Origin: Acidimicrobiales bacterium
Lineage (GTDB): Bacteria > Actinomycetota > Acidimicrobiia > Acidimicrobiales > Acidimicrobilacustridaceae
DNA length: 64,000 nt
Assembly: GCA_025455885.1 (NCBI GenBank)
Contig: JALOLR010000009.1
Span: forward strand, 1 to 64,000
Direction of reading: 5' to 3'
Part shown: piece after piece, positions 10,716 to 39,056 of the stretch
Position numbering within the stretch: position 1 is the stretch's first letter
How the letters are laid out: the number at the start of each line of letters is the position of its first letter
Made by a program: the position numbers and the translations under genes
Notes under the pieces: generated by a model
The model's input: the letters and a program-made list of their open reading frames with translations, nothing else
Told to the model about the DNA's origin: nothing
Databases searched by the model: none

Positions 10716-12184
10716 CGCCCGCTCCCCTCGTCGTCGGCGGCGGCCGGCCCGGTGTCGACCGGACGGGCCTTCCAGAAGTAGTTGTGCACGCCCTGGGCGG
10801 TGTGGAGCCGACGGAAGACCATCTCCACGGGGATCCCGATCGCCACTGCATCGGGGTCGACGTCGGTCATCTCGCAGCGGTACCGCCCACCGCCCTCGAA
10901 GTCGACGACGGCGCCGACGACGGGCGGTGACAGGGAGTAGGCGAGGTGGTCGATGGTGAACGTCGCCACCCTCCCCGGCGTGTCGGCGAGTCGCTCGAGG
11001 CGCATCCGGTCGACGGCGTGGCACGCCAGGCACACCCGCGTGGGCGGCAGGTGCCGGAACCCGCACGCCTCGCACCGGCTGGCCGCGAAGCGGTTCTTCC
11101 ACGGCCCCGACCGCCAGGTGGCGGGGGCCCCCGGCCGCTCCGGGTCGGGGCGCCGGGCCGGTTCGCGGCGCAGCCGGCCCCGCCAGGTCAGGAAGCGGGC
11201 GTAGGGGAGGTCGTCGCGGCCGAGACCGACGAGCTCGTCGACGGTGCGCAGGCCCGAGCGCGTGCGTGCCGCTCGGATCTCGTCGATGCCGTCGGCGATC
11301 TCGAGCACCACCGCGTCGGCGCCGTCGGCGACGACGACCACGACGACCACCTCGCCGGGCCGGGCCCGGTCGAGCACGTCGGCGAGCAGGAACCCCGCCT
11401 GGGCCGCCCCGAGGTTGCCGGCGGTGACCGCCCGATCGGGCACCACCGCCTCGGCCCGCACGCCGAGCGACGTGCGCGCCGCCGCCACCGCCCGGGCGTT
11501 CAGACCGGCCACCACCAGGTGGTCCACCGCCTCGGGGACCACGCCGGCCTGCTTGACGGCGTCGGCGAAGGCCGCCTCGACGAGCGGGCCGTAGACCTCC
11601 TGGCCGAAGCGGTCCTCCCAGGTGCGGGAGTCGTCCTCGCCGGGCAAGCGCCAACGATCCAGGAACTCGGCGCTGGCCCGCCCCCGACCGACGACGGTGG
11701 CCGCCACCGAGCGGGAGCGGTCGTCGCCGAACACCAGCGCCACGGCACCGTCGCCGGCGTCGCGCTCGTCGGGGCCCCCGGCCGGCCCGCTGCGCAGGTC
11801 CGACAGCACGGCGAGGGTGAGGTCGTCCCCGGCGAGCGCCTCGGCGCTGCGCCACGCCCCGACCGCGGCCCGCACCGAACCGACGGCGTCGTAGCTGCCG
11901 ACCGCGTCGTCGAGGGCGAGGGCGGCGTGCACCGCGGCGGCGTTGCTCTTGTCGAGGTAGGCCGGGGCGGGCGTGGAGAACACGAGGTCACCGATCCGGG
12001 CCCCGTCGACGGAGGCGAGCGCCCGGCGGGCGGCCTCGACGCCCATCGTCGTGGTGTCCTCGTCGTAGGAGGCGACCCGCCGGGTGCCCCGACCGGCCGG
12101 CCCGCCGAGCGCCTCGCCGATGGCGGAGCGCCGGAGACGCCAGTACGGGAGGTACACCCCCCACGACACGATCCCGATGGTCAC
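10712..12184 (-). CDS. HMG-CoA synthase-like/KAS III-like protein fused to DUF35 zinc ribbon-OB fold
   Basis: The 490-residue protein joins two modules. Residues 1 to about 340 resemble the thiolase-fold HMG-CoA synthase/KAS III family (IGIVSWGVYLPYWRL at the start). The position of the usual catalytic cysteine reads YDAVGSVRAAVGAW, with serine, so condensation activity is doubtful. Residues from about 360 form the DUF35 module: a rubredoxin-like ribbon with CEACG and CLACH, then an acyl-CoA-binding OB fold. The start is a GTG at 12184. It overlaps the thiolase by 4 bp. DUF35 proteins are known to pair with thiolases, so this is probably the scaffold or partner of the downstream thiolase. Confidence 0.8.
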   Translation of the reverse strand: MTIGIVSWGVYLPYWRLRRSAIGEALGGPAGRGTRRVASYDEDTTTMGVEAARRALASVDGARIGDLVFSTPAPAYLDKSNAAAVHAALALDDAVGSYDAVGSVRAAVGAWRSAEALAGDDLTLAVLSDLRSGPAGGPDERDAGDGAVALVFGDDRSRSVAATVVGRGRASAEFLDRWRLPGEDDSRTWEDRFGQEVYGPLVEAAFADAVKQAGVVPEAVDHLVVAGLNARAVAAARTSLGVRAEAVVPDRAVTAGNLGAAQAGFLLADVLDRARPGEVVVVVVVADGADAVVLEIADGIDEIRAARTRSGLRTVDELVGLGRDDLPYARFLTWRGRLRREPARRPDPERPGAPATWRSGPWKNRFAASRCEACGFRHLPPTRVCLACHAVDRMRLERLADTPGRVATFTIDHLAYSLSPPVVGAVVDFEGGGRYRCEMTDVDPDAVAIGIPVEMVFRRLHTAQGVHNYFWKARPVDTGPAAADDEGSGR

Positions 12185-12314
12185 GTACCCTCCGTTCTAC
12201 GGCCTCGCCACGCGCCCGTCCGCGGGACTCGCGACAGCGGCGGTCAGCGGTTCGAACAGCGGCGTCACGAATCTAGTGGTTGCCCCGATCGGCCGCCCCG
12301 GGCAGGCTCGCCGC

Positions 12315-12977
12315 ATGGAGATCGAGATGGACACCGAGGCCACCGACCACCTGCTCACCACCACCCGGGCGGTGCGCCGCCGACTCGACCTCGACCGGCC
12401 CGTCGACCCGGCGGTGCTCCTCGACTGCCTGCGCATCGCCACCCAGGCCCCCACGGCGAGCAACGACCGCAACTGGCGATGGGTGGTGGTCACCGATCCC
12501 GATCGGCGCGCCGCGCTGGCCGACCTCTACCGCGCCAGCGGGGCCGACTACCTCGCCCGGGCCGCCGAGACCGAGACCGATCCCCAGACCCGGCGGGTGT
12601 ACGAGAGCGCGCTGGCGCTCACCGAGACCCTGCACCGCGTCCCGGTCCACGTGATCCCGTGCATCGAACGTCGCTTCGACGGGGCGGCCAACCCGATCGC
12701 CGCCTCGGCCTACGGCTCGATCCTCCCCGCGGCGTGGAGCTTCCTGTTGGCGTTGCGCTCCCGCGGCCTCGGGTCGGTGTGGACGACCCTGCACCTCTTC
12801 CGCGAGCAGGAGGCCGCGGAGCTGCTGGGCATCCCCGACCACGTCACCCAGGTGGCGCTGTTCCCGGTGGCCCACACCACCGGCGGCGACTTCCACCCCG
12901 CCGCCCGCCCGCCCGTCGAGTCCGTCACGTCGTGGAACCGCTGGGGCGAGGCACCTCCGGGGACCGGCGACCGATGA
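12315..12977 (+). CDS. Nitroreductase family protein
   Basis: I choose the ATG at 12315, giving 220 residues, the standard size of this flavin-dependent family. The N-terminal TTTRAVRRRLDLDRPVDPAVL and IATQAPTASNDRNWRWVVV segments are the FMN-binding phosphate loop region seen in nitroreductases. The C-terminal part (LGIPDHVTQVALFPVAH) matches the family's final strand. The enzyme would use NAD(P)H and FMN to reduce a nitro, quinone or enone group. It is divergent from the HMGCS/DUF35 operon across about 130 bp, so both may respond to the same signal. Confidence 0.87.
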   Translation: MEIEMDTEATDHLLTTTRAVRRRLDLDRPVDPAVLLDCLRIATQAPTASNDRNWRWVVVTDPDRRAALADLYRASGADYLARAAETETDPQTRRVYESALALTETLHRVPVHVIPCIERRFDGAANPIAASAYGSILPAAWSFLLALRSRGLGSVWTTLHLFREQEAAELLGIPDHVTQVALFPVAHTTGGDFHPAARPPVESVTSWNRWGEAPPGTGDR

Positions 12978-13038
12978 GTTCGGGCCCGGACCGTCGTCTC
13001 CATCACCGACACCCGACCGTCCGACCCCGGAGGCCCCG

Positions 13039-13803
13039 ATGACCGCCCGAGACCACGCCCCCACCGGGGCGCCCTGCTGGATCGACCTGTTCACCTCCGA
13101 CGTCGACGCCGCCGTGGCCTTCTACGGCGACCTCCTCGGCTGGACCGCCGACGAACCGAACCCCGAGTTCGGCGGCTACACCAACTTCCGCCACGACGGC
13201 GAGTGGGTGGCCGGGATGATGGCCAACGACCCCAGCTGGGGGGCGCCCGACGCGTGGTCCGTCTACCTCGCCACGAGCGACGCCGCCGCCACCGTGCAGG
13301 CCGTGACGGCGCATGGTGCGACCGTCAGCGCCGGTCCCCAGCGCGTCGGCGAGCTCGGGACGATGGTCGTGATCGACCATCCCGCCGCAGGCGGCGTCGG
13401 GTTCTGGGAGCCCGGCGAGCACGAAGGCTTCCGCACCTTCGACGAGCCGGGCACCCCGTCGCACTTCGAGCTCCACACGCCGGCCTACGCCGAGGCGATC
13501 GCCTTCTACCGCGACGCCGTCGGATGGACGACGACCACCATGAGCGACACCGACGACTTCCGCTACACCGGGGCGGAGTGGGACGGCGAGACGCTGGCCG
13601 GGATCATGGACCGCTCCGACCTGCCCCCTGGTTCGCCGGCCCGATGGGCGATCTACTTCCGCGTCACCGACGTCGACGCCGCGCTGATTCGGATCCCCGG
13701 GCTCGGCGGCACCGTCGAGGCCCCGGCCGCCGACACCCCGTACGGGCGCCTCGCCGAGGCCGCCGACCCGACCGGGGTCCGCTTCCGGGTCGTGTCCGGT
13801 TGA
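13039..13803 (+). CDS. VOC superfamily protein with two glyoxalase-like domains
   Basis: The 254-residue protein contains two tandem VOC modules. The first begins with PCWIDLFTSDVDAAVAFYGDLLGW (split here as a family hallmark: metal-fold strand then FY-GxLLGW helix), the second with SHFELHTPAYAEAIAFYRDAVGW near residue 143. The arrangement is that of the actinobacterial CFP-30B/hydroxylase-associated group. No substrate can be assigned. ATG at 13039 follows GGAGG. It is 61 bp after the nitroreductase on the same strand. Confidence 0.82.
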   Translation: MTARDHAPTGAPCWIDLFTSDVDAAVAFYGDLLGWTADEPNPEFGGYTNFRHDGEWVAGMMANDPSWGAPDAWSVYLATSDAAATVQAVTAHGATVSAGPQRVGELGTMVVIDHPAAGGVGFWEPGEHEGFRTFDEPGTPSHFELHTPAYAEAIAFYRDAVGWTTTTMSDTDDFRYTGAEWDGETLAGIMDRSDLPPGSPARWAIYFRVTDVDAALIRIPGLGGTVEAPAADTPYGRLAEAADPTGVRFRVVSG

Positions 13804-13836
13804 CGACGCGCCCCGCCGACGCCTCCGGCCACGCCG

Positions 13837-14043
13837 ATGACCCGACCGGATCTCTCCCACGTGGATCTGCTGTGCCACCTCCAACGCGCCGCGCAGACCC
13901 TCGGCTGCCGCTTCGTCGTGCACGACGCCGGAGCCGACCTGGTCGAGCTCCTCGAGCTGTCCGGGCTCGACCGGGTGCTGCTCGCCGACCCGCCCACGAC
14001 CGCCCTCGCCGGTCCTCCGGCGAGCCCGGACCCGGGTTCGTAG
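13837..14043 (+). CDS. Short STAS-like protein (anti-sigma-factor antagonist fragment)
   Basis: The 68-residue product resembles the C-terminal half of a STAS domain: [19 protein letters not shown], then a hydrophobic strand, then [16 protein letters not shown], the final helix typical of SpoIIAA-like proteins. The phosphorylatable serine and N-terminal strands are missing, so it is either a minimal variant or a truncated gene. It ends one base before the first codon of the adjacent ECF sigma gene, which suggests co-expression and a role in sigma-factor control. Family assignment is by pattern only. Confidence 0.5.
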
Positions 14044-27648: not shown

Positions 27649-27893
27649 CGCGCCAGCCTACGAACGACGCCGCCCGGCGATCGGTTCTCGTCTCCGCGGT
27701 CCGGGCCTGCACGGACGCCGACGAGCCGACCGGCGTCGACGTCGGGTCCTGGCGGTCACGTCAGCGATCCCGATGTCCTCGACCCGCAGGGCCCGCATCC
27801 GCTCGTCCGGGTCGGACGGCCGCCCCTCCTCGATGCCGACCGGTTCTGCGAACCTCGCCGGCAGCGTCCCGAACCCTGTCGATGGCGACCTTC

Positions 27894-27911
27894 GGGGACG
27901 GCTTTCAAACC
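27894..27911 (+). repeat. 18-bp direct repeat, copy 1
   Basis: GGGGACGGCTTTCAAACC occurs here and again at 28035-28052, 141 bp later. A 12-base part (CTTTCAAACCCT) also occurs at 38920-38931 beside tRNA-Val. In the second copy it forms part of the HTH reading frame (GRLSN). Confidence 0.7.
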
Positions 27912-28034
27912 CTCCCGAGATCGCGGGAACCCTTGCAGGACAGGGGTCAGTGGGCCCGAGGCGCCCGCGGACGGCCGTCGATCGGACGCGAGACGGGGCT
28001 GCGCCGGGCGCGCCGGGCGCGGTTCCAGAGCAAA

Positions 28035-28052
28035 GGGGACGGCTTTCAAACC
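28035..28052 (+). repeat. 18-bp direct repeat, copy 2
   Basis: Second exact copy of the 18-bp element at 27894-27911, here inside the HTH remnant. Two copies 141 bp apart suggest a local duplication or a recombination footprint. Confidence 0.7.
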
Positions 28053-28411
28053 TTGTCCAGCGACGCCTGTCCGAGACCGCAGTGGATGCCATCGTGGTCG
28101 CCCACACGGAGGGGACGACGATCGACGCACTCGCGAGTCGATTCGAGGTCCACCGGACGACCATCCTCCATCACCTCGATCGCCGAGGCGTTCCCCGGCC
28201 GCCAAGCGCGCAAGATGACCGATCGCTCTGTTCACCAGGCGGCCAACGCTACGAGGCGGGCGAGTCGCTCAAGGTCGTTGGGGCCCAGTACGCCATCGAC
28301 GCAGGCACCCTCGCCCGAGAGTTCCGGCGCGCCGGCGTACCGATCCGTCCCCGCCGAGGCTGGGTGCCCCGACCCAACCAGGCGAGCACCCCTTCCCCAA
28401 AGGGTTCCTGA
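28035..28411 (+). pseudogene. Decayed helix-turn-helix gene, recombinase-associated type
   Basis: The frame ending at 28411 reads GRLSNLVQRRLSETAVDAIV, then an HTH (IDALASRFEVHRTTILHHLD) and ends with AREFRRAGVPIRPRRGW. Between about 28195 and 28247 this frame is nonsense, whereas the frame one base over reads ARKMTDRSVHQAA, the expected start of the second HTH repeat. Two compensating small indels explain this. Proteins with this double-HTH pattern often sit beside serine recombinases. Only the remnant is present; no catalytic domain is nearby. The segment upstream (27649-27890) has no convincing gene. Confidence 0.55.
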
Positions 28412-28727: not shown

Positions 28728-30722
28728 TCAGCCTCCGGCGCTGTCGGCCAAGGCCTCCTGGGTGAAGGGGTCGTCGTCGACGGGCACATCGGGGCGTCGG
28801 GTACCGGGCATGATCTCGAAGGTCGGGGTGAAGTGCACGAGCATGCCAGCGAGGGTGAGGAGGACGCCGGGGTCGCCCTCGACCTGGGCGGTGCCATCAG
28901 TGAGCTGCTCCTGCAGGGGCCTCGTACCGATCATCGCCTGCTCGATGTCGGAGCGGTTGATCGTGATCGTGAGGTCGGCGTCCTCCGCGAGGAAGCCTTC
29001 GAGGTTGGTGAGGGTGCCGTTGGTCAGCTCGACGACGAACCGCTCGCCGTTGTCGGGGGTGATCAGGTTGATCGTGAACGACGCGCTCTCGGCTCGCACG
29101 GGGTCGAGCCGGATCCCGAGCAGGTCGAGGAACTGCCCGGTGCTGACGGCGCGGATGACGTCGGGGCCCGAGGCCTTGGGGACCGAACCCTCGGGTAGGC
29201 CTGAGCGCAGCTCGAACGCGGCGGCCAGGAAGCTGTTGCGGACGCTGGGGCTCTCCCGCTGGTAGCCGATCTGCTCGAAGGCGTCGGCCAGCAGCTGGCG
29301 CGCGTCGGCGTTGTCGGGCTCGGCGTAGACGAGCTTGTTGAGGATCTCGACGGCGAGCAGGTACTCGCCCTCGTCGACCAGCTCACGGCCCCGAGCCAGG
29401 ATCGGCTTCGCGCCGCCCATCATCTCGACGTACAGCGGGGCCGAGTCGCTCGGAGACAGCGGGAGCAGGGTGGCGGGGTTGCCGTCCCAGTAGCCGAGCC
29501 AGCGGTTGATCACGGCGCGGGTGTTGTGCTCGACCGAGCCGTGGTAGCTGCGGGCCGCCCACTGCTGCTGCAGGCTCCCCGGTGGCTGGTACACGTTGTG
29601 GATCTCGTTGATGGTGACGCCCTGGTTCGCGAGGTGCAGCACCGCGTTGTTGAGGTGGGCGTAAGCGTCGCGCTGGGTGCGCATCACCTCCTGGATCCGT
29701 TCGTTGCCCCAGCGCGGCCACGAGTGCGAGGCGAACATCACCTCCGCCTCCTTGCCGAAGAGGTAGAGCGCCTTGTTGATCTGGCGGGACCACTCGAGGG
29801 CGTCACGCACGAGCGCGCCGCGCAAGGTGTAGATGTTGTGGACCGTGGCCACGATGTTCTCGGCTGCCCAGAACGCCTTCCACTCGGGGAAGTAGGTGTT
29901 CATCTCGGCCGGCGCCTCGGTGCCGGGGGTGTTCTGGAACACCATCCGCACGCCATCGACGGTCAGCTCCTCGATGTCGTCCGCGATGTGCACCGTCGGA
30001 GCGATCAGGCCGGCGGTCCCGTTGGCCACGCCCTTGCCGATCGCCTGGTCGACGTGACCGAACGGGCTGCGGGCGAGGAGGGTCCCGTACTGGTACACCA
30101 TCCGCCGGTTCATGGCGTTGCCGGCGTACACGTTCTCGGCCACAGCGTGTTCGAGGAACCCGATCGGGGCGATCACCTGGACCGTCCCGGCGGCCACGTC
30201 GGCCGAGTCGATCACGCCCCGCACCCCACCCCAGTGGTCGGCGTGGGAGTGCGAGTACACGACGGCGACGACCGGGCGCTCCCCGAGGTGCTCGGTGACA
30301 AGCGCCAGGGCAGCGGCCGCGGTCTCGGTCATCGTCAACGGGTCGAACACGATCCAACCCGTGTCGCCCCGGACGAACGTGATGTTGGCCAGGTCGAAGC
30401 CGCGCACCTGGTAGATGCGATCGGGCAACACCTCGTAGAGCCCGTACTCCATGTTGAGCACGGCCTGGCGCTGCAGCGACGGGTGGATGCTCTCGAGCGG
30501 CTGCCCGTCGAGCAGGAAGTCGTAGGCACCGATGTCCCACACGGCCCTGCCGTCGTCGGCCACGATCCGGCGTTCGCTCGGTGCAGCCAGGAAGCCCCGC
30601 CGAGCCTCCTCGAAGTCCCGTTCGTCGTCGAAGGGAAGGGCGGCGTGTGCCGTCTCGTGGGCCGCCACCGTATAGGAGGAGGCTGGTCGTCCCAGTGGGT
30701 GGAAGTGTGCGTGATCGGACAT
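28728..30722 (-). CDS. SdsA-type alkylsulfatase (metallo-beta-lactamase fold)
   Basis: The 664-residue protein has the SdsA1/BDS1 layout. An N-terminal MBL domain carries the binuclear zinc motif YSHSHADHWGG near residue 157 and further ligands in FQNTPGTEAPAEMNTYFPEW and FASHSW. A helical dimerisation region follows (about residues 430-530). A C-terminal SCP2-like lipid-binding domain (about 540-650) has ITINRSDIEQAMIGTRPLQE. It hydrolyses alkyl sulfates to alcohol and sulfate. No signal peptide is seen, so it is probably cytoplasmic. It is divergent from a truncated TetR start and a BASS transporter, and its promoter region contains one of the TGTCTACA elements. Confidence 0.93.
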   Translation of the reverse strand: MSDHAHFHPLGRPASSYTVAAHETAHAALPFDDERDFEEARRGFLAAPSERRIVADDGRAVWDIGAYDFLLDGQPLESIHPSLQRQAVLNMEYGLYEVLPDRIYQVRGFDLANITFVRGDTGWIVFDPLTMTETAAAALALVTEHLGERPVVAVVYSHSHADHWGGVRGVIDSADVAAGTVQVIAPIGFLEHAVAENVYAGNAMNRRMVYQYGTLLARSPFGHVDQAIGKGVANGTAGLIAPTVHIADDIEELTVDGVRMVFQNTPGTEAPAEMNTYFPEWKAFWAAENIVATVHNIYTLRGALVRDALEWSRQINKALYLFGKEAEVMFASHSWPRWGNERIQEVMRTQRDAYAHLNNAVLHLANQGVTINEIHNVYQPPGSLQQQWAARSYHGSVEHNTRAVINRWLGYWDGNPATLLPLSPSDSAPLYVEMMGGAKPILARGRELVDEGEYLLAVEILNKLVYAEPDNADARQLLADAFEQIGYQRESPSVRNSFLAAAFELRSGLPEGSVPKASGPDVIRAVSTGQFLDLLGIRLDPVRAESASFTINLITPDNGERFVVELTNGTLTNLEGFLAEDADLTITINRSDIEQAMIGTRPLQEQLTDGTAQVEGDPGVLLTLAGMLVHFTPTFEIMPGTRRPDVPVDDDPFTQEALADSAGG

Positions 30723-30741
30723 CGGACCTCCCGCTCCAGCG

Positions 30742-30762
30742 GTTCGCGCACGACGCTCCGCT
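30742..30762 (+). repeat. 21-bp exact repeat, copy A of duplicated TetR promoter
   Basis: These 21 bases (starting GTTCGCGCACGACG) are identical to 31960-31980. Around them, 30721-30875 resembles 31933-32093 over about 150 bp, through the shared promoter and into the first codons of a TetR gene. Confidence 0.85.
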
Positions 30763-30788
30763 TGGTGAACGCTGCCTGTGTTTCCAAC

Positions 30789-30796
30789 TGTCTACA
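30789..30796. promoter_or_regulatory. TGTCTACA element, copy 1
   Basis: TGTCTACA sits in the alkylsulfatase/TetR-remnant intergenic region. On the plus strand TACACT is positioned as a -10 box about 8 bases before the remnant GTG, hinting at leaderless transcription. The same element recurs at 32008 and 36678. Confidence 0.5.
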
Positions 30797-30806
30797 CTAG
30801 GGGATT

Positions 30807-30881
30807 GTGGTCACGTCAACTCCGAGAGCACAGCAGCGGAGCGACAGCGATGCCGCCATCTTCGATGCGGCCTACCGGCGC
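30807..30881 (+). pseudogene. Truncated start of a TetR gene (copy of the 32026 gene start)
   Basis: From the GTG at 30807, the first 25 codons read VVTSTPRAQQRSDSDAAI then FDAAYRR, closely matching the start of the tandem TetR at 32026 (VVATIPGVQERTDSQAAI then LDAAYGL). After that the similarity stops and no HTH follows. The upstream promoter region is duplicated as well. It is a remnant of a duplicated regulator gene. The 165 bp between it and the BASS gene show nothing recognisable. Confidence 0.75.
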
Positions 30882-31046
30882 TCAACGATGGCCTCCCGCA
30901 GCTGTCCGGCACTCGAACGAGCTGACCCGGCGACGGTCCGGCATCGGCTTCGCGGGAGTGTCCGTGACGGTCGTCGACGACACCGCTCCATCGTCGAAGT
31001 CGCTTGAATCGCCGTCGCGGCGCGGCTCACCTGACGAAGGGCAGAC

Positions 31047-31907
31047 GTGGACACGCTCATCAACATCGCAACGTTGGTCTTCGTGGTCTCGTCGATGCTC
31101 GCCATGGGCCTCAGCCTGACCCTGACCGCGATCTTGGGACCTCTCCGGAGCCCGCGCTTCGTGTTCACCGCCCTCGGGGTCAACTTCGTCGCCGTGCCGC
31201 TCATCGCCGTTGGCATCCAAGCGGTGCTCGACCTCGACGACCCCCTCTACGCCGGGCTCTTGCTCATCGCAACCGCTGCTGGTGCCCCGTTCCTGCCCAA
31301 GCTGGCGGAGCTCGCCGGCGCCGACGCGGCCCGGGCGGTCGGCCTCATGGTCCTGCTCATGACAGCGACCGTGCTCTACATGCCTGTGGTGCTCCCGATG
31401 CTGCTTCCCGAGGTGACCCTCCACCCGTGGGACATCGCTTCGTCGCTGTTGCTCCTGATGCTCCTCCCGCTCGCCGTCGGCCTCCTCGTCAAGGCCAGAG
31501 CCGGACGAATCTCGGAGAAGTGCCAACCGATCGCGGCGCGTACATCCACCATCGCCATTGCCGTCCTCGTCGTGGTGGGCATCGCCGCGAAGTGGAGCAA
31601 CGTCGTCGACCTGTTCGGCACCGGCGGACTGGCCGCCATCGCAGCCTTCCTCATCGGCGCGCTCGTGGCCGGCTTCCTCGCCGGTGGCACCGAGCCCGCT
31701 GCCAGGTCACTCAGCGGGCTCGGAACCGCCCAGCGGAACCTGTCCGCCGCGCTCGTCGTCGCCGCCCAGAACTTCAGCGACACGCCCGACACGCTGACGT
31801 TCGTCATCGTCGCCGCCCTCGTCGGCCTCGTCGCGCTGATCCTTGCTGCGAGCCTGTTCGGGCGACGAAACCGACCGGCCGCGCCCACGGATTCGCAGGG
31901 GGCTTGA
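31047..31907 (+). CDS. BASS (bile acid:sodium symporter)-like transporter
   Basis: The 286-residue product is almost wholly hydrophobic, with about nine membrane helices, the size and layout of prokaryotic BASS/SBF proteins. Family-like stretches are MGLSLTLTAILGPLRSPR near residue 20 and GLGTAQRNLSAALVVAAQNF near residue 230, matching the helix-breaking crossover region with the QRN motif. BASS proteins import organic anions such as bile acids or sulfonated/sulfated compounds with sodium. Its place beside an alkylsulfatase suggests uptake of sulfated organics. Confidence 0.82.
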   Translation: MDTLINIATLVFVVSSMLAMGLSLTLTAILGPLRSPRFVFTALGVNFVAVPLIAVGIQAVLDLDDPLYAGLLLIATAAGAPFLPKLAELAGADAARAVGLMVLLMTATVLYMPVVLPMLLPEVTLHPWDIASSLLLLMLLPLAVGLLVKARAGRISEKCQPIAARTSTIAIAVLVVVGIAAKWSNVVDLFGTGGLAAIAAFLIGALVAGFLAGGTEPAARSLSGLGTAQRNLSAALVVAAQNFSDTPDTLTFVIVAALVGLVALILAASLFGRRNRPAAPTDSQGA

Positions 31908-31959
31908 ACCTGCCCAGCCTCGTGCGCGTGGTCGGACACCGGGTCTCCCGCTCGTGGCA

Positions 31960-31980
31960 GTTCGCGCACGACGCTCCGCT
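31960..31980 (+). repeat. 21-bp exact repeat, copy B of duplicated TetR promoter
   Basis: Identical to 30742-30762. Here it precedes the intact tandem TetR gene by about 46 bp. The last ten bases (GCTCCGCTCG with the next two bases) recur once more at 36660-36669 between the SulP and CPA2 genes. Confidence 0.85.
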
Positions 31981-32007
31981 CGGTGACGAAGCTGTCGCGT
32001 TTCCAAC

Positions 32008-32015
32008 TGCCTACA
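32008..32015. promoter_or_regulatory. TGCCTACA element, copy 2
   Basis: TGCCTACA, with TACAGT as probable -10, lies 10 bases before the GTG of the tandem TetR. The short distance implies a leaderless transcript. It corresponds in position to copy 1 at 30789. Confidence 0.5.
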
Positions 32016-32025
32016 GTGGAAGACC

Positions 32026-33270
32026 GTGGTTGCGACAATTCCGGGGGTCCAAGAGCGGACCGACAGCCAGGCGGCCATCCTCGATGCGGCCTACGGGCTG
32101 TTCGCCCGCTTCGGGCCCGACGGCGCCTCGTTGCGGGCCATCGGCGAGGCCGCCGGCTACACCCACGCGTTGGTCGTGCGCCACTACGGCACCAAGGACG
32201 GGCTCGTTGACGCCGTCGCGGCCCGCATGGCTGCCGTCGTCGATGGCGGAGTCGACAGGATCACCACGACGTCGGACCAGCCGGTGGCCGAACTCCTGCA
32301 CGCCGCCCGCACCCATCGGGCCAGCAGCCAGCTCCTGATCCGCAGCGCCTTGGGTGATCTCCCGGCGACGGGCTTCCCGGCGTGCCTGCACCTCGGTTGG
32401 CTGCAGGCTCACGCGAACCGCCAGGGGCGTGCGAGCACGGCGATGCCAGAGCGGCGCCGACGAATCGCCGCCTACGCGGCGACCTGCGTGATGCTCGGTT
32501 TCGTCACCTTCGAGGGCTTCGTGGTTGCCGCCACCGGACTGGGTGCGCTCTCGCCTAAGCGACGCGACCGCGCGGTCGCACTCTCGGTGGATCGAATGCT
32601 GCAGGTCGGCGGCAGCCACGAGCCGCGCCTCGAGTCGCGCGATCTGTCGCCGCTGCCGTCGGTGACGGCCGCCGACACGGAGGACGACGACCGTCCAGCA
32701 TCAGGTCGTGACGCCCTCCTGGCATCGGCCATCGAGCTCTTCGCGGCACGTGGCCCGGCTTCGGTGTCGGTGCGCGGCATCGCCCACCATGCGAACGTCA
32801 ACCAAGGTCTGATCTACCGCCACTTCGGCTCCAAGGACGCGCTGCTGGCGGTGGCGATCGAGGAGAGCAGCAGCGGTCTGTTCCCCGCCGCGCTGGCGGA
32901 CGAGGGCTTCGACTTCGACGCGGTGAGCTGGATGGTGCACCACCGCTCCCCCGCTCCCCGCCTGATCGCCCGGACCCTCGTCGACGACGTCGACATCCGC
33001 ACCGTCCGTCGACGGTTCCCGATCCTGCGCCGCCTCATCGACGACTTCGACGATGTGCCCACCGGCGCGGGGCCGGGCGACCTGTCCGATCCCAGGGTCG
33101 CCGTCGCCTCGGCTGCCAGCCTCGTGCTCGGATCCGCCGTGTGGGGCGAAGCGGTTGGGCCCGCCCTCGGGCTGCGAGGCGGCATCGAGAGCGCTGTCTC
33201 CGACCTCGCCCGCCTCCTCGTCGCCGAACCGCTGGCGATGCAGACTGCGCCGGTCCGCGGGGATGGCTGA
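32026..33270 (+). CDS. Tandem (double) TetR-type transcriptional regulator
   Basis: This 414-residue protein contains two complete TetR units in one chain. HTH 1 is at about residues 13-58 (ASLRAIGEAAGYTHALVVRH followed by YGTKDGLVDAV). HTH 2 is at about residues 226-272 (VSVRGIAHHANVNQGLIYRH followed by FGSKDALLAVAI). Each is followed by a helical ligand domain. A linker near residues 200-225 is acidic and Pro/Ser-rich. A monomer could therefore imitate the usual TetR dimer. The GTG start at 32026 lies just after a -10-like TACAGT. Its last 8 bp overlap the next membrane-protein gene. Likely target: the TGYCTACA-containing promoters of this locus. Confidence 0.88.
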   Translation: MVATIPGVQERTDSQAAILDAAYGLFARFGPDGASLRAIGEAAGYTHALVVRHYGTKDGLVDAVAARMAAVVDGGVDRITTTSDQPVAELLHAARTHRASSQLLIRSALGDLPATGFPACLHLGWLQAHANRQGRASTAMPERRRRIAAYAATCVMLGFVTFEGFVVAATGLGALSPKRRDRAVALSVDRMLQVGGSHEPRLESRDLSPLPSVTAADTEDDDRPASGRDALLASAIELFAARGPASVSVRGIAHHANVNQGLIYRHFGSKDALLAVAIEESSSGLFPAALADEGFDFDAVSWMVHHRSPAPRLIARTLVDDVDIRTVRRRFPILRRLIDDFDDVPTGAGPGDLSDPRVAVASAASLVLGSAVWGEAVGPALGLRGGIESAVSDLARLLVAEPLAMQTAPVRGDG

Positions 33271-33988
33271 CCCCGGCAACCCGCCGCTCCTGGCGCCCAG
33301 CCCATGGCGCCGCCGGTTCGCCTCGATCCAGGCGGCGGCCGTGGCGGGCATCATCTGTGCGGTCGGCTGGTCGGTGTCGCTGAGAGGACTGCTCGCTGCG
33401 CCAGGCATCTCGGCCACCGACGCCGAAATCGCTAACTTCTACGCCGAGCGGGCCAACGCCACCGCTGCGCTCGTGTGGCTGCAGGTCCTCGTGTTCTCCA
33501 CCATCGCGTTCCTGTGGTTCGTCGGGGTCGTTCGTGGTCGAATCGGCGACAGCGAACCCAAGCTGTTCGGCACGGTGTTCCTCGGTTCCAGCATCCTGTT
33601 GGCCGCGCTGCTCTTCCTCGGCGGCGCGCTGCTGGCGGCACCGGCCGTCCAAGTGGCGGTGGCGGACAAGTCGCCGGACCCTGGCGCGGTGTCGCTGCTG
33701 CGGTCGACCGCTGCGGGCGTGCTCACGGTGGTGCTCCCCCGGGTGGCGACGCTGGTCATGTTCTCCACCGCCAGCCTGGCACGAGCCACCGAGGCGCTGC
33801 CGCGGTGGCTCGTGCTGCTCACCTACGCCGTCGGCGTGTACGAACTTGTCAACGTCACCGTCGACACGCCAACCGTCTACATCGTCCCCGCCTGGATCGC
33901 CCTCGTCAGCGTCGTGCTCCTGGTCCGCCGCCCCGCCCATCCCTTCGAGCTCGACGCCGCGACGACCCGACCGAACTCACCTACCTGA
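33263..33988 (+). CDS. Multi-pass membrane protein, unknown function
   Basis: The 241-residue product starts at the ATG inside the last codons of the TetR gene (ATGGCTGA overlap), so the two are translationally coupled. About six hydrophobic helices are visible (starting near residues 18, 62, 94, 150, 182 and 207). Between helices 1 and 2 is a short acidic loop (ATDAEIANFYAERAN). I do not recognise the family. Coupling to the regulator suggests it may sense or transport the same signal, but this is inference. Confidence 0.7.
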   Translation: MADPGNPPLLAPSPWRRRFASIQAAAVAGIICAVGWSVSLRGLLAAPGISATDAEIANFYAERANATAALVWLQVLVFSTIAFLWFVGVVRGRIGDSEPKLFGTVFLGSSILLAALLFLGGALLAAPAVQVAVADKSPDPGAVSLLRSTAAGVLTVVLPRVATLVMFSTASLARATEALPRWLVLLTYAVGVYELVNVTVDTPTVYIVPAWIALVSVVLLVRRPAHPFELDAATTRPNSPT

Positions 33989-34035
33989 CCGAACCACCGA
34001 TCGGGCCACAGCGCAAGCACCTCTGCGACCCCACG

Positions 34036-34956
34036 TCAGCGCACCGCCGGCGGGTCGTCCCACGAGGGATCGGCGGAGAACTCGACGGTCAGCCACGCGT
34101 CGAGGCCGAGATCGGTGAGTGCCCTGGCGACGGACCGGCGGACGTCATCGGTCTCACCGACCGTCCGGTCGGGCTCGGTGACGTACTCGGCGTCGACGTA
34201 GAGCTTGGTGCCGACCTTGGTCATCCGCACGGTCGGCGAGTCGAGGCCATGGGCCACCGACACGGCCTCGATGGCCGACTGCACCCGTTCCTGCACGGCG
34301 TCGTCGGGTGCCGCCTCGAGCAGCTCGCGCAACATCGTGCGCACCATGCGCAGCGGCGGCACGACGAACACGCACGCCGCCACCAGCACGAGGCCGGGAT
34401 CGACGTAGCCGGCCAGGTCCGACCGCGACGAGTCCGCCAGCAGCTGCGCCCCGACGAAGGCGGCGAGCATCCCGGCGCCGAACGCACCGCCTGCCCGCCA
34501 CTGGGTCGCCTCGGCGTCGACCAGCTCCGACGACGACGTCCGAGTGAGCCAGGCGGCCATGCCGAGCGGGGCGACGAAGGAGATGGCGGCGTAGACGAGC
34601 CCCCATCCGCCGACCACCTCGCCACCGCCGGAGAGGATCGTGGAGAGCGCCTCGAAGGCGGCGTAGGCGCAGGTGGCCAGCAGGGCGACACCCTCGATCC
34701 CGATCACCAGCGGAACGACGCCCTCGCGTCCGTACGGGTAGCCGGGTGTGGGACCGCTGCGGCCGGCGCGTGACGCGAGCAGCGCCATCCACGCCAGCCC
34801 GACGCCGAGGAGGGAGAAGGCGCCGTCGAACAGGATCACCTGCGAGCCAGACACGATGCCCAACACGATGCCGATGGCTGCGAACACCCCGGCACCGACC
34901 ATCGACGCCGTCAGCGCCCGCCGCTCGTTCCTGGCTTCGTCGGCCTGAGCTGGCAC
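34036..34956 (-). CDS. Divergent cation diffusion facilitator (CDF)-like protein
   Basis: The 306-residue product has the CDF layout: five to six membrane helices (residues about 15-215) and a C-terminal cytoplasmic ferredoxin-like domain (about 220-305; MTKVGTKLYVDAEYVTEPD). Helix 2 reads ILFDGAFSLLGVG, where the usual second metal-binding aspartate is missing, and the helix 5 HxxxD site is also not apparent. It may therefore move something other than Zn2+ or work differently. It begins with GTG 2 bp after the SulP stop, so the two form an operon. Confidence 0.75.
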   Translation of the reverse strand: MPAQADEARNERRALTASMVGAGVFAAIGIVLGIVSGSQVILFDGAFSLLGVGLAWMALLASRAGRSGPTPGYPYGREGVVPLVIGIEGVALLATCAYAAFEALSTILSGGGEVVGGWGLVYAAISFVAPLGMAAWLTRTSSSELVDAEATQWRAGGAFGAGMLAAFVGAQLLADSSRSDLAGYVDPGLVLVAACVFVVPPLRMVRTMLRELLEAAPDDAVQERVQSAIEAVSVAHGLDSPTVRMTKVGTKLYVDAEYVTEPDRTVGETDDVRRSVARALTDLGLDAWLTVEFSADPSWDDPPAVR

Positions 34957-34958
34957 CG

Positions 34959-36647
34959 TCAGGTCCCCTCGTCGTCGGCCGGGCGGTGTTGCTCGACCCA
35001 GGCGGCGGCGTCCATCTCGGCGGCTTGCAGGGCGGCGCCAACCCGCTCGTCGCCCCGGTAGAGGGCCTCGGGTCCGACGACATCGAGCACGCCGGTGGCG
35101 GCCAGCTGCTCTTCGATCCGCTCGTTGGTCGAGACGACGAGGAGTCGTGACCCGACCTCTCTGACGGCGATGGCGTAGCGGCGCACGACGTCCATGAACG
35201 TGGTCCCGAGGTCCGACCGCCCCCGCAGCCGGAGGACGACGACCGTGCCACGTGAGGTCGACGCTACCGTCGGCAGGGCGTTCTCGAACACCGGGGCGGC
35301 GGCGAAGAACAGGCTGCCGTAGGGCTGCAGCACCACGACTTCGCCGGCGGGCAGCTCAGCTGGTGGTGCGACCTCGATCACGTGGCCGTCGGCGTCTCGG
35401 ACCCGCCGCACCACCGTCACCTGGTTGGATTGGCGCACCACGTGCAGCACGACCGACAGGCCGACGCCGACCATCACCGCGTACTGCAGCGGGATCACCA
35501 TCGTGAGCACGAACGTGACGACCAGGACCGCCTTCTGCACGACACCGGTCCTCCACACCGAGCGCACGTCGGCGGGCTTGACGGTGCGCACGCCGATCAG
35601 GATCAGCAGGCCGGCCAGCGCAGGCATGGCCAGGTAACCGACGGCGTCACCGAACGCGACGATCACGACCGCCATCACCGCTGACGCGACGATCGGCGCC
35701 CAGCGGCTGCGGGCGCCGGCCGCCTTGTTGATGGCCGACGCCGACACCGACCCGCCGACCGGCATGCCCTGCATCACCCCCGACGCCACGTTGGCGACGC
35801 CCTGCCCGACGAAGTCCCGGGACGCGTCCGGGTAGCGGCCATCGGGGTTCACGAAGTTCGCCGAGATCCCAGCACCCTGCACCAGCCCGACGAACGCCAG
35901 CGACGCCGCCGGCACCAGCAGTGCCGGCACCGCGCCGACCAGGGGCCACGTCGGTGTGGGCAACCCGTCGAGGTCGACACCGAGATCGGACAGCGTGGCG
36001 ACGCCCGACCAACCCAGCGTCGCAGCGGCGGCCGAGGTGGCGATCACCCCGACCACCAGGCCCAACGCCCCGATCGATGTGCGTTCCAGAGCGATGATCA
36101 GCAGGATGGTGCCGAGGCCGACGGCCACGCTCCGCCAGTCGAGCTCGCCCGGCGACAAGACGGTGTTGAGCGCCCGGACCACCCGATTGGCTCCGTCGGC
36201 GGCGAACCCGGTCAGGTTGGCGAGCTGGCCGAGCACGATGTTCACGCCGACGGCGTTGATGAAGCCGACCATGACGGCGTTGGACACGAAGCGCAGCACC
36301 GAACCCAGCTTGAGGAGCCCGGCGGCCAGCATCACTGCGCCCGTGAGGATCGACAGCGTGAACAGCGCCCGCTCGGGGTCGGTGCTGTCGTGCACTGCAG
36401 GAACGTCGGCGACGACCATGGCCATCGCTCCGGTGCCCTGCACGACCATGAACGTCGACGAGGTCGCCGCTGCCCCGGCGAGGGTGCCGACCACGTAGGC
36501 GTAGAGGCCGGCCAACGGGCTCACCCCGGCGAGCAGCCCCGTCGCCAGGCCATCGGGCACGCTCTGCACACCGAGGACGAGACCGGCCACGCCGTCGCGG
36601 CGCAGCCTGCGACCGATCGCTGCGACGCGACTCGACCTCATCGTCAC
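34959..36647 (-). CDS. SulP family inorganic anion transporter with STAS domain
   Basis: The 562-residue protein has a SulP transport domain (about residues 15-400, roughly 12-14 helices; GVQSVPDGLATGLLAGVSPL at the start is the family signature region). A C-terminal STAS domain follows (about 430-540; VVLQPYGSLFFAAAPVFENA). SulP members carry sulfate, bicarbonate or other anions. Next to an alkylsulfatase, sulfate is the leading candidate. The start is either GTG 36647 or ATG 36641, with GGAGG upstream. It is first in a SulP-CDF operon and divergent from the CPA2 antiporter. Confidence 0.9.
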   Translation of the reverse strand: MTMRSSRVAAIGRRLRRDGVAGLVLGVQSVPDGLATGLLAGVSPLAGLYAYVVGTLAGAAATSSTFMVVQGTGAMAMVVADVPAVHDSTDPERALFTLSILTGAVMLAAGLLKLGSVLRFVSNAVMVGFINAVGVNIVLGQLANLTGFAADGANRVVRALNTVLSPGELDWRSVAVGLGTILLIIALERTSIGALGLVVGVIATSAAAATLGWSGVATLSDLGVDLDGLPTPTWPLVGAVPALLVPAASLAFVGLVQGAGISANFVNPDGRYPDASRDFVGQGVANVASGVMQGMPVGGSVSASAINKAAGARSRWAPIVASAVMAVVIVAFGDAVGYLAMPALAGLLILIGVRTVKPADVRSVWRTGVVQKAVLVVTFVLTMVIPLQYAVMVGVGLSVVLHVVRQSNQVTVVRRVRDADGHVIEVAPPAELPAGEVVVLQPYGSLFFAAAPVFENALPTVASTSRGTVVVLRLRGRSDLGTTFMDVVRRYAIAVREVGSRLLVVSTNERIEEQLAATGVLDVVGPEALYRGDERVGAALQAAEMDAAAWVEQHRPADDEGT

Positions 36648-36677
36648 CGGACCTCCACAGCTCCGCTCGTTACCATA

Positions 36678-36685
36678 TGTCTACA
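36678..36685. promoter_or_regulatory. TGTCTACA element, copy 3
   Basis: TGTCTACA occurs in the 55-bp gap between the divergent SulP and CPA2 genes, and GCTCCGCTCG at 36660-36669 also matches the duplicated TetR promoter. This links these genes to the regulon suggested for the alkylsulfatase locus. Confidence 0.45.
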
Positions 36686-36702
36686 CCTGGAGGATCTGGC
36701 CG

Positions 36703-38700
36703 ATGAACTGGTCCGAAGTGCAGATGAGTCCGGCGTTCGGCTTCACCGTGGTCGGGCTGATCATCGTGGCCGCACCGATCATCTTCGAGCGACTCCGCCT
36801 GCCAGCCGTGCTCGGGCTGCTCACCTTCGGCGCCCTGATCGGCCCGAACGTGCTCGATCTGCTCCCGCAGTTCACCGGCCTGCGCGCCGTCGGGAGCATC
36901 GGCGTGCTCTACCTCATCTTCCTCGCCGGGTTGCAGCTCGACCTCGAGACCTTCGCCCGCTTCCGCAAGATCTCCGCCGGGTTCGGCGCACTCACGTCCG
37001 TCGTCCCGATGGCGCTCGGCACCGGCGTGGCGCTGCTCCTCGGCATCGACCCGCGCCCGGCGCTGCTCATCGGATCGTTCTGGGCGTCGTTCACCCTGAT
37101 CGCCTATCCCACAGTTGCCCGGTACGGCCTGTCGAGGACTCGCGCCGTCGCGGCGATCGTGGGTGCCAGCGCGATCACCGACGCCGTCTCGCTCGTCGTG
37201 CTCGCCCTCATCGTGGGCGCCGAGACCGGCGACGCCGGCGGCGCCCAGCTGGTGCTCCAGATCGCCGCCGGGTTCGTCGTCCTCGGCATCTACTGCTTCG
37301 TCGTGGTCCCAGCTGTCGCCCGCTGGTTCTTCACCGGTCTCGGCCAGGAGCGCACCCTGCGCTACATGCTGGTGTTCATCTCGCTCACCTCGTCGGCCAT
37401 GGTCGCCGAGCTCGTCGGTGTCGAGCCGCTCATCGGCGCCTTCTTCGTCGGGGTCGGGCTCAACCGCCTCGTGCCGAACGCAAGTCCGCTCATGGCCGTG
37501 ACCGACTTCTTCGGGAACGCCCTGTTCATCCCCACCTTCCTGATCTCGGTCGGGCTGCTCTTCGACCCAGAGGTCATGTTCGTCTGGTCGACCATGCGAC
37601 TGGCCATCGCCTTCACCGCCGCGCTCGTCGTCGGCAAGGCCATCGCCGCCTGGCTCACCGGACTGACCTTCCGTCTGGCGCGAGCCGAGGTGGGACTGCT
37701 GTTCTCCATGTCAGTCGCCCAAGCCGCAGCGACCCTTGCCGCCACCGTGATCGGGTACGAGATCGGCCTCTACGGCGCCGACGTGGTCAACGCCGTCATG
37801 GTCGTCGTGGCCGTGAGCCTGATCATCACCTCCGTCACCACCAACCGATTCGCCCCCCGCGTCCCACCTCCCGACGACGACCGCCGCCGCGCCGGCGAGA
37901 TGGTGCTCGTACCCGTCCTCGGCAACCTCGACGGGCTCCCCGAGATGCTCCGGCTCGGTCGTGACCTGGCCGACCCCGCCGGCGGCATCGTCCAACCGCT
38001 GGTCCCGGTGGCCTCTGCGACCAGAGACGACCTCCGTGCCGGGCGCGCCATGCAGGCCCAAGCCGACCAGGCACTGCGCGAGCTCGGAGGCGACGAGGAG
38101 ACCCTGCTTCGGGTGGACCGGTCGGTCGCCGGCGCATTGCACCAGGCGGCCATCGAACATGACGCCTCCCTCCTGCTCCTCCAGTGGCCCGGACCCGGCG
38201 ACCTCCGTGCCCGGATGATCGGCGCGACGTTCGGTGAGATCATCACCGCCACGTCGGTCCCCGTCGTGATCGCCGGACTCCACCCCCGCAGCGGCGGCGA
38301 GCGCATCGTGGTGTACGGCACGCACCAGGACCTCGTGCCCGGCAACCGGCCCACGATGGCGCTCGCGCTCGAGGTGGCGTCCGCACTGTGTCGCCGCAGG
38401 GACGAGCCGCTCGTCATCGGCCCGGTCCCCCCATCAGCACTCGAGGACGCCGGTCTCACGATCCCTCCGACCGCGGACCATCGGGAGGCAGACGAGGACC
38501 TCGAGACCTGGGCGGCGGCAGTGACCCGCCCCGGCGACGTCGTCGTCGTACCGATCCACGACCGCGCCATCCGCAACGACGCGATCCGCGTCTACCAATC
38601 CGGCCGATCGGTGCTCGCGGTCAACCAGAACCCGGAAGCGTCGTCGGGACCGGCCACGAGTCCCCTGAACCTCGCCGTCGGCCGCTCGTTCGCCACCTGA
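36703..38700 (+). CDS. CPA2-type cation:proton antiporter with C-terminal USP-like domain
   Basis: The 665-residue protein has an N-terminal Na+/H+ exchanger domain (about residues 10-385, some 12 helices; GASAITDAVSLVVLAL near residue 150 carries the functional aspartate). The cytoplasmic C-terminal half (about 400-650) resembles paired universal-stress-protein folds (MVLVPVLGNLDGLPEML and IIVYGTHQD-like segments). It could rebalance H+ and cations during anion transport. GGAGGATCTGGCC precedes the ATG, which is only 55 bp from the SulP start. Confidence 0.88.
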   Translation: MNWSEVQMSPAFGFTVVGLIIVAAPIIFERLRLPAVLGLLTFGALIGPNVLDLLPQFTGLRAVGSIGVLYLIFLAGLQLDLETFARFRKISAGFGALTSVVPMALGTGVALLLGIDPRPALLIGSFWASFTLIAYPTVARYGLSRTRAVAAIVGASAITDAVSLVVLALIVGAETGDAGGAQLVLQIAAGFVVLGIYCFVVVPAVARWFFTGLGQERTLRYMLVFISLTSSAMVAELVGVEPLIGAFFVGVGLNRLVPNASPLMAVTDFFGNALFIPTFLISVGLLFDPEVMFVWSTMRLAIAFTAALVVGKAIAAWLTGLTFRLARAEVGLLFSMSVAQAAATLAATVIGYEIGLYGADVVNAVMVVVAVSLIITSVTTNRFAPRVPPPDDDRRRAGEMVLVPVLGNLDGLPEMLRLGRDLADPAGGIVQPLVPVASATRDDLRAGRAMQAQADQALRELGGDEETLLRVDRSVAGALHQAAIEHDASLLLLQWPGPGDLRARMIGATFGEIITATSVPVVIAGLHPRSGGERIVVYGTHQDLVPGNRPTMALALEVASALCRRRDEPLVIGPVPPSALEDAGLTIPPTADHREADEDLETWAAAVTRPGDVVVVPIHDRAIRNDAIRVYQSGRSVLAVNQNPEASSGPATSPLNLAVGRSFAT

Positions 38701-38734
38701 CAGCCCCCAGCCCGGGAGGAGCGAAGCAGGACCT

Positions 38735-38812
38735 CTCTCCAACGTGCCTACGAGCCACCCGGATCACGTCCTCGCGGAACTCACGGGGATAGGGCTTGGG
38801 CATGGTGGACAT
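38735..38812 (-). pseudogene. Start of an IS3-type transposase OrfA, truncated
   Basis: On the minus strand from the ATG at 38812 the frame reads MSTMPKPYPREFREDVIRVA then RRHVGE, which matches the opening of actinobacterial IS3-family OrfA proteins. The HTH that should follow is absent, so only about 26 codons survive. It is an insertion-sequence scar between the CPA2 gene and tRNA-Val. Confidence 0.6.
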
Positions 38813-38982
38813 CCTTCCAGCGGTGCCTTCCGGCACCACAGATCAGATGTCACCGACTCACGGGGCAGGTATGACTCCCATGTTCGTAGCAGGTCTCGCC
38901 CGAGGAACCTTCGTCGCATCTTTCAAACCCTGCCTCTGACCAGGGGTGATGCGGCGAATCGTTGCGTTTTCCACAACGTTCG

Positions 38983-39056
38983 TGGGCGTAACAGGACTCG
39001 AACCTGTGACCTCTGCCGTGTGAAGGCAGCGCTCTAACCAGCTGAGCTATACGCCC
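38983..39056 (-). tRNA. tRNA-Val (anticodon CAC)
   Basis: Read on the minus strand, the cloverleaf has acceptor GGGCGTA pairing with TACGCCC, D-arm with AGCTCAGCTGGTTAGAGC, anticodon stem CTGCC/GGCAG around loop TTCACAC (anticodon CAC, valine GUG), and T-arm with GGTTCGAGTCC. The discriminator base is A and CCA is not encoded. Its 3' end faces the accessory island at lower coordinates. Confidence 0.95.

Follow-up and report, generated by a model that had tools for sequence, protein, structure and literature searches.

A TetR-linked alkylsulfatase and transporter cassette with a predicted role in cytosolic cleavage of sulfate esters

The DNA analysed here (the window) is a stretch of 64,000 nt, positions 1 to 64,000 of contig JALOLR010000009.1 in the assembly GCA_025455885.1 of an Acidimicrobiales bacterium (family Acidimicrobilacustridaceae). 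Positions 28728–38700 hold a cassette of seven genes, identified by gene calls and Pfam; an earlier reading made from the sequence alone had named the same seven, and all of them were found together. The cassette probably represents a real, co-regulated and partly recurrent module. We consider it somewhat likelier than even odds that the module is under TetR control and removes sulfate from sulfate esters in the cytosol; ligand, substrate, directions of transport and repression itself are predictions. The genes are as follows:

28728..30722, minus strand: alkylsulfatase, SdsA1 type (Pfam; phmmer against 2cfu)
31047..31907, plus strand: SBF/BASS-family transporter, lying between both copies of a repeat (Pfam)
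32026..33270, plus strand: double TetR regulator, a chain of 414 residues with two TetR_N domains (Pfam, two stretches)
33263..33988, plus strand: membrane protein of 241 residues without a family match; its start overlaps the TetR stop
34036..34956, minus strand: protein of the cation-efflux fold (CDF), 2 bp after the SulP gene (Pfam)
34959..36647, minus strand: SulP-STAS anion transporter (Pfam)
36703..38700, plus strand: CPA2-family antiporter with a Usp domain (Pfam)

Non-coding gaps between the cassette genes total 544 bp. We infer five transcription units: alkylsulfatase (minus), BASS (plus), TetR with membrane protein (plus), SulP with CDF (minus) and CPA2-Usp (plus).

Duplicated promoter region and predicted operator

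The alkylsulfatase and TetR genes are separated by the BASS gene, and the BASS gene is flanked by two copies of one segment. Positions of these copies and of the predicted operator sites are given below.

30705..30879: repeat copy A, with the alkylsulfatase start (leftward, MSDHAH), promoter/operator and a truncated TetR start (rightward, GTG at 30807)
31922..32098: repeat copy B, with a remnant of the alkylsulfatase start (VSDHAHEAGQV), promoter/operator and the intact TetR start
30781..30797: operator site A (TetR, predicted), TTTCCAACTGTCTACAC
32000..32016: operator site B (TetR, predicted), TTTCCAACTGCCTACAG
36670..36686: operator site C (TetR, predicted), TTACCATATGTCTACAC, within the 55 bp that separate SulP from CPA2

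Copies A and B form a 175-bp direct repeat with 139 of 174 aligned bases identical; the alignment score is 189, compared with 43 at most for random pieces of the window. This arrangement suggests that the alkylsulfatase and TetR genes were probably once divergent neighbours on one shared promoter. The simplest history would be that the shared promoter was duplicated, together with the starts of both genes, on either side of a newly arrived BASS gene. Such a divergent pair is the classical layout of a regulator and its target, and it ties TetR to the alkylsulfatase independently of any motif.

The sequence-only reading had noted that three gaps share TGYCTACA. The 64 kb do contain this octamer exactly three times, always in a cassette gap (0.36 expected; 1 of 100 shuffles reached three); since the first two gaps are copies of one segment, these amount to two independent occurrences, not three. 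A second shared sequence named by that reading, GCTCCGCTCG, exists without mismatch at 31973 and 36660 and with one mismatch at 30755, and as a motif it was rejected: with up to one mismatch it has 23 places in the window against 26.5 expected.

TGYCTACA forms the core of an inverted repeat that is imperfect and has TGY-CT-ACA at its centre. Similar sites exist in a genome of the same family, G004 (genomes and loci are cited below by G and L numbers): CCAACTGT-CT-ACAGTT precedes its double TetR gene, and two further sites are found in the interval separating an arylsulfatase/aminotransferase pair from a divergent BrkB-like gene (the latter below the Pfam cut-off). Of the 8 positions around the CT centre, those that pair number 6 in site A, 5 in B, 6 in C, 4 in G004-1, 5 in G004-2 and 6 in G004-3; in most of these sites the motif itself fixes three of the counted pairs. 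In G004, a gene for a DUF6325-type small protein begins directly beside the TetR operator.

From the six sites of G004 and the window genome (G000, 3.29 Mb) we derived a 17-bp pattern, TNNCCAWMTGYCTACAS. When one mismatch at most is allowed, 12 of 33 genomes contain it, at 18 places in total. Three are in G000, all at cassette promoter regions, and three in G004, all around the double TetR gene; the other 12, each with one mismatch, are spread over 10 further genomes. Exact sites are limited to the six, and none was found in the other 31 genomes scanned. The real test is that neither genome has an extra site and that the two genomes have a flank, CCAACTG, in common; it reappears in G004 at TetR and beside the sulfatase operon. 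In G041, SulP and alkylsulfatase are separated by a stretch with one more candidate site, whose flank is weaker.

Several observations speak against this operator. The pattern was built from the same sites that it finds, and refinding these six is no test; its overall count is at background, as a reversed control pattern has 23 places in 13 genomes. Neither G320 nor G379 has the pattern at up to one mismatch, despite their more distant double-TetR relatives. The possibility that site C belongs to the 175-bp repeat as a further copy was rejected: its alignment is matched by 9 of 772 random pieces (with A) and by 368 of 770 (with B). As its gapped alignment with the copies is near random, site C rests on the short core.

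The edges of the cassette bear on another explanation. These edges contain the following features:

38732..38803, minus strand: transposase-like fragment, start of the protein, MPKPYPREFREDVIRVARRHVGER, presumably IS3-type
38982..39056, minus strand: transfer RNA (tRNA) gene, tRNA-Val(CAC)
27773–28411, at the other edge: weak match to the helix-turn-helix domain HTH_38, below the Pfam cut-off

An exact 18-base direct repeat, GGGGACGGCTTTCAAACC, occurs at 27894–27911 and 28035–28052 within the region of the helix-turn-helix fragment. The G+C content at 28–38 kb (0.68–0.72) differs weakly from that elsewhere in the window (0.70–0.77).

The tRNA gene and the transposase-like scar would fit a chance patchwork of unrelated transporter genes, brought together by insertions next to a tRNA, in which the motif is a by-product of the duplication and of a TANNNT −10 element located 8 bases before leaderless GTG starts. 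The repeat indeed accounts for two of the three motif copies, TACACT and TACAGT look like −10 elements, and the pattern total over the 33 genomes is at control level. Still, CCAACTG recurs in G004 both at TetR and beside the sulfatase operon, the pattern is found nowhere else in either genome, and the same gene families are linked in other phyla; we regard a patchwork as quite improbable. The reading as a single regulon draws, in turn, on an operator-like site at each of three promoter regions and nowhere else in the genome (up to one mismatch) and on the probable ancestral pairing of TetR and alkylsulfatase, together with the recurrence of parts of the set elsewhere; the predicted uptake by BASS is called into question by its replaced Na+-site residues, described below.

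The regulator itself has TetR_N (PF00440) in two stretches, which places it in the family. The double TetR of G004 is 46–47% identical over nearly the full length; G379 has a relative, cut by a contig end, on another contig than its gene cluster. The predicted fold of the double TetR (mean predicted local distance difference test, pLDDT, of 44.9) was unusable. Relatives of the membrane protein stand beside SulP in G239 (64% identical), G303 (37%) and also G004; its fold model has a mean pLDDT of 64 and no match in the PDB under E=0.001.

The enzyme and its transporters

The window enzyme is an SdsA-type (type III) alkylsulfatase, with alkyl sulfate hydrolysis as the predicted activity. PF00753 (Lactamase_B), PF14863 (dimerisation) and PF14864 (C-terminal) all score over their Pfam cut-offs, the closest solved structure is SdsA1 (2cfu; phmmer E=1.1e-223), and the metal-binding and sulfate-site segments HSHADH, TPGTEAPAEMN, AEN and SWPRWGN align with SdsA1. 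The enzyme pairs with an 82% identical relative from another actinobacterial metagenome-assembled genome and groups with enzymes of Nanopelagicales, Cellulomonas, G333 and G412. Its nearly full-length matches in 60 relative genomes are at most 48% identical, and a partial match reaches 54% over 408 residues. On these figures, the idea of the cassette as a long-standing trait of the family is unsupported for the alkylsulfatase. A 63-residue piece in G006 (C36:14544-14726) is 66% identical to the window enzyme, above any longer match in the relatives, and another alkylsulfatase, with 44% identity, is encoded elsewhere in the window genome (L127, G000:C18, 8323-10179).

By a simple hydrophobicity rule, the N-terminus of the window alkylsulfatase has no signal peptide. 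We surveyed 60 alkylsulfatases with 57% identity or more and an intact start (nine others, cut or with a late start, were dropped). Of these, 51 appear to be exported, L097 and L103 on visual inspection and the other 49 by script; nine have no signal. A SulP or Pfam-family BASS gene lies within 0.5 kb of five of the nine leaderless enzymes (L064, L096, L102, L171 and L172, the last two from one genus) and within 3 kb of three of the 51 exported ones (L090 and second copies in L096 and L102). Fisher's test on this difference gives p=0.001, or 0.004 if L171 and L172 are taken as a single case. L065, whose BASS-like neighbour matches our own profile only and no Pfam family, is left out of this count; with it the figures are six of nine and p=1e-4. 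The other leaderless cases are L053 and L054, at a contig end or on a short contig, and L057, with no such gene in the stretch covered; for the two plasmid rows of the survey, gene tables were the sole source of neighbours. Transporters thus tend to accompany a cytosolic alkylsulfatase, as expected if the ester must enter and sulfate must leave. The clusters L096 and L102 (Rhodobacterales) each have one leaderless and one Tat-type alkylsulfatase around a SulP-BASS pair.

The BASS protein scores 54.8 bits with PF01758 (cut-off 24.3) and 48.5 bits with TIGR00841, far below the cut-off of 326.3. All eight BASS members aligned have GAP-type and RN motifs, and the arginine may hold a sulfate group in place of the Na+ ligand.

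Import by BASS and metal transport by the CDF-like protein face specific objections. BASS does not have the PGG..SN and E.G.QN motifs of its solved relative; AAGAPFLP and GTAQRN stand there instead, and because these motifs, assigned to the Na+ site after ASBT structures, are replaced, Na+-driven uptake is doubtful. Moreover, the window BASS is 55 and 57% identical to two BASS proteins unlinked to alkylsulfatase, and 24–49% to five linked ones. The CDF-like protein reaches the Cation_efflux profile (77.9 bits), and at the places of the metal site, which we take to be DxxxD in transmembrane helix 2 and HxxxD in transmembrane helix 5, it has DGAFS and WRAGG (by eye), with a similar loss in L130 and L064; zinc transport is unlikely because the metal residues are lost. 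In the PDB it has no sequence match and weak profile matches, mostly to the MamM C-terminal domain (E=0.03), in alignments that span no transmembrane part.

The missing Na+ motifs also fit a regulon that is real and serves detoxification of amphiphilic sulfates or membrane-active anions, with the alkylsulfatase inactivating these compounds, BASS, CPA2 and SulP restoring ion balance or exporting products, and no nutritional role. TetR regulators often govern stress and efflux genes, and CPA2 carries a Usp domain; however, cytosolic hydrolysis requires prior entry, and relatives of SulP also accompany arylsulfatase-family genes, which are not known as detergent-defence enzymes. By Pfam the cassette has no alcohol or aldehyde dehydrogenase and no coenzyme A (CoA) ligase, unlike the slf operon (PMC3346939), a further point for detoxification. 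On balance we find this explanation unlikely.

The SulP-STAS protein belongs to a divergent SulP subfamily. It matches PF00916 (Sulfate_transp), PF01740 (STAS) and 23 distinct solved sequences, and it scores 192.4 bits with TIGR00815 (sulP), below the cut-off of 380.45. In the tree it falls into a group of eight rows (support 100/100) that represent seven distinct loci, a sulfatase-linked subclade; six of the seven (the window included) have a sulfatase or alkylsulfatase gene at a distance of 5.3 kb or less, and the seventh ends at a contig edge. Sulfate export is the probable role, with a predicted direction.

Members of the SulP family are mostly uptake systems or exchangers, and the window SulP might import sulfate or the organosulfate itself, making the cassette a sulfur-scavenging system. 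A Streptomyces microflavus plasmid (NZ_CP054927.1, L295) that has alkylsulfatase, a Sap/GAP (sulfolipid-1-addressing) family protein and SulP in a row is compatible with import. Yet a sulfate importer would be redundant because cytosolic hydrolysis already yields internal sulfate, and there are no sulfate-assimilation genes among the cassette genes. Import is a possibility that we rate as rather unlikely.

Other neighbours of these transporter families deserve mention. The window genome encodes a second SulP (73%; L122, G000:C8, 9147-10730) near an arylsulfatase-family gene (11655-14009). DUF6325-type small proteins occur near sulfatase-linked SulP genes (L119 11221-11637, L122 14248-14697, L253 16378-16878); a DUF389/DUF308 membrane protein is divergent from a pair of SulP and BASS (26%) in L232 (11700-13325) and L233 (10961-12571). 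Radical-SAM/SPASM/SEC-C proteins, which we take to resemble sulfatase-maturating enzymes, stand beside BASS and near SulP (L159 1172-2518; L253 17035-18414).

CPA2 is the cassette member with the thinnest recurrence support. A 74% identical protein adjoins SulP in G379, and G338 has a BASS-CPA2 pair; unrelated antiporters are present in L064 and on two plasmids, and L174 has one beside BASS.

Recurrence in other genomes

Relatives of TetR, BASS, SulP and CPA2 were searched for in 395 genomes each, class-wide; the window genome and 60 relatives (61 genomes) were searched with these four and the alkylsulfatase, the CDF-like and membrane proteins were sought within selected loci, and 66 loci were taken from named genomes. 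Synteny exists in pieces: the full seven-gene set was found in no other genome searched, only in the window. G379 has alkylsulfatase, BASS, SulP and CPA2 on one strand; alkylsulfatase is paired with BASS in G333 and G412 (one genus), with SulP in G041 and G388, and with CDF in G006. G004 has TetR, SulP and the membrane protein together.

The links extend beyond the class. Ruegeria denitrificans (L102) and Aliiruegeria lutimaris have alkylsulfatase, SulP and BASS (SBF by Pfam) in this order. The Nanopelagicales locus L064 has SulP, alkylsulfatase, an Na+/H+ exchanger and a CDF relative, without BASS. Among the named genomes SulP is next to alkylsulfatase in L064, L096 and L102, and BASS is within 3 kb in L090, L096 and L102.

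With the window left out, 9 of 42 loci with SulP relatives have a sulfatase or alkylsulfatase within 5 kb (0.52 expected) and 11 of 42 within 10 kb (0.89 expected). BASS and alkylsulfatase are neighbours (within 3 kb) in 3 of 17 loci, from two genera, against 0.033 expected if each genome has at least one alkylsulfatase. Expected counts are Poisson estimates from genome-wide gene counts, uncorrected for genome kinship. The SulP count omits G211 (36% SulP) and the second SulP of G303, and weaker PF00884 matches were left unplaced, which may undercount neighbours.

The converse counts limit how far the association can be taken. No sulfatase or alkylsulfatase lies within 10 kb of 31 of the 42 SulP relatives, and no alkylsulfatase within 3 kb of 14 of the 17 BASS relatives, some of these absences being due to short contigs. 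In 8 inspected plasmids of 130 matched, with incomplete gene tables, alkylsulfatase is near SulP in one, near an Na+/H+ antiporter in two and near a listed BASS in none. The gene families recur together, yet most single members, including most SulP and BASS relatives, stand apart; orthologues scattered with no shared motif, the outcome that the sequence-only reading had named as contrary to its proposal, are not what we found.

Proposed function and known systems

As a module for cytosolic desulfation, the cassette would work as follows. The double-domain TetR would control all five units through the imperfect inverted repeat, and an organosulfate or its alcohol product would release the repressor. 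The sulfate ester would be brought in, probably by BASS; the zinc alkylsulfatase would hydrolyse it in the cytosol; sulfate would leave by SulP, and CPA2 may help to restore ion and pH balance.

A broader proposal, which we advance tentatively and hold at less than even confidence, is that a class of cytosolic organosulfate modules recurs, with a leaderless alkylsulfatase and an Arg-type BASS and/or a sulfate-exporting SulP, assembled independently in several lineages (the class of the window genome, Nanopelagicales without BASS, Rhodobacterales). Here the regulator of such a module would be a natural pseudo-dimer, a single-chain TetR that recognises an operator of slight asymmetry, and the regulon would have grown by duplication of a divergent promoter around an inserted transporter gene.

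How intracellular cleavers of sulfate esters import the ester and dispose of sulfate is, to our knowledge, poorly defined. The cassette offers candidate transporters, a candidate repressor and a predicted 17-bp operator, as well as a likely example of a regulon that was extended when a divergent promoter was copied on both sides of an added gene.

The enzyme class is that of the SdsA1/SdsB1 system of Pseudomonas aeruginosa (2cfu). SdsA1 is exported and paired with the LysR-type regulator SdsB1, whereas the window enzyme is leaderless and accompanied by TetR and transporters. An alkylsulfatase in a dedicated regulated operon is also known from slfRCHSL of the Psychrobacter plasmid pP62BP1 (PMC3346939); this operon has an AraC-type regulator, dehydrogenases and a CoA ligase, with no transporter among the five genes named, in contrast to the transporters and TetR regulator of the cassette. 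The YraS alkyl sulphatase of Yersinia ruckeri is of the same enzyme family and differs in its flanking genes, a hypothetical gene and a decarboxylase gene (PMC4207315). The available portions of these articles and of PMC6107682 report alkylsulfatase loci with other partners and none with this set; likewise, judged by title and the opening of the abstract, no open-licence paper among those listed deals with this gene combination or with a comparable natural tandem TetR.

Closer counterparts come from genomes. In G379, from another family of the same order, SulP is 69% and alkylsulfatase 45% identical to those of the window, besides the CPA2 protein mentioned above. The clusters of Ruegeria denitrificans and Aliiruegeria lutimaris resemble the window in having three families side by side with a leaderless alkylsulfatase first; they differ in having no match to double TetR, CDF or CPA2 in these stretches, their proteins are 24–59% identical, and the Aliiruegeria SulP is split in two frames. 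Ruegeria denitrificans CECT 5091 is thus a named strain that carries the transporter part of the cassette.

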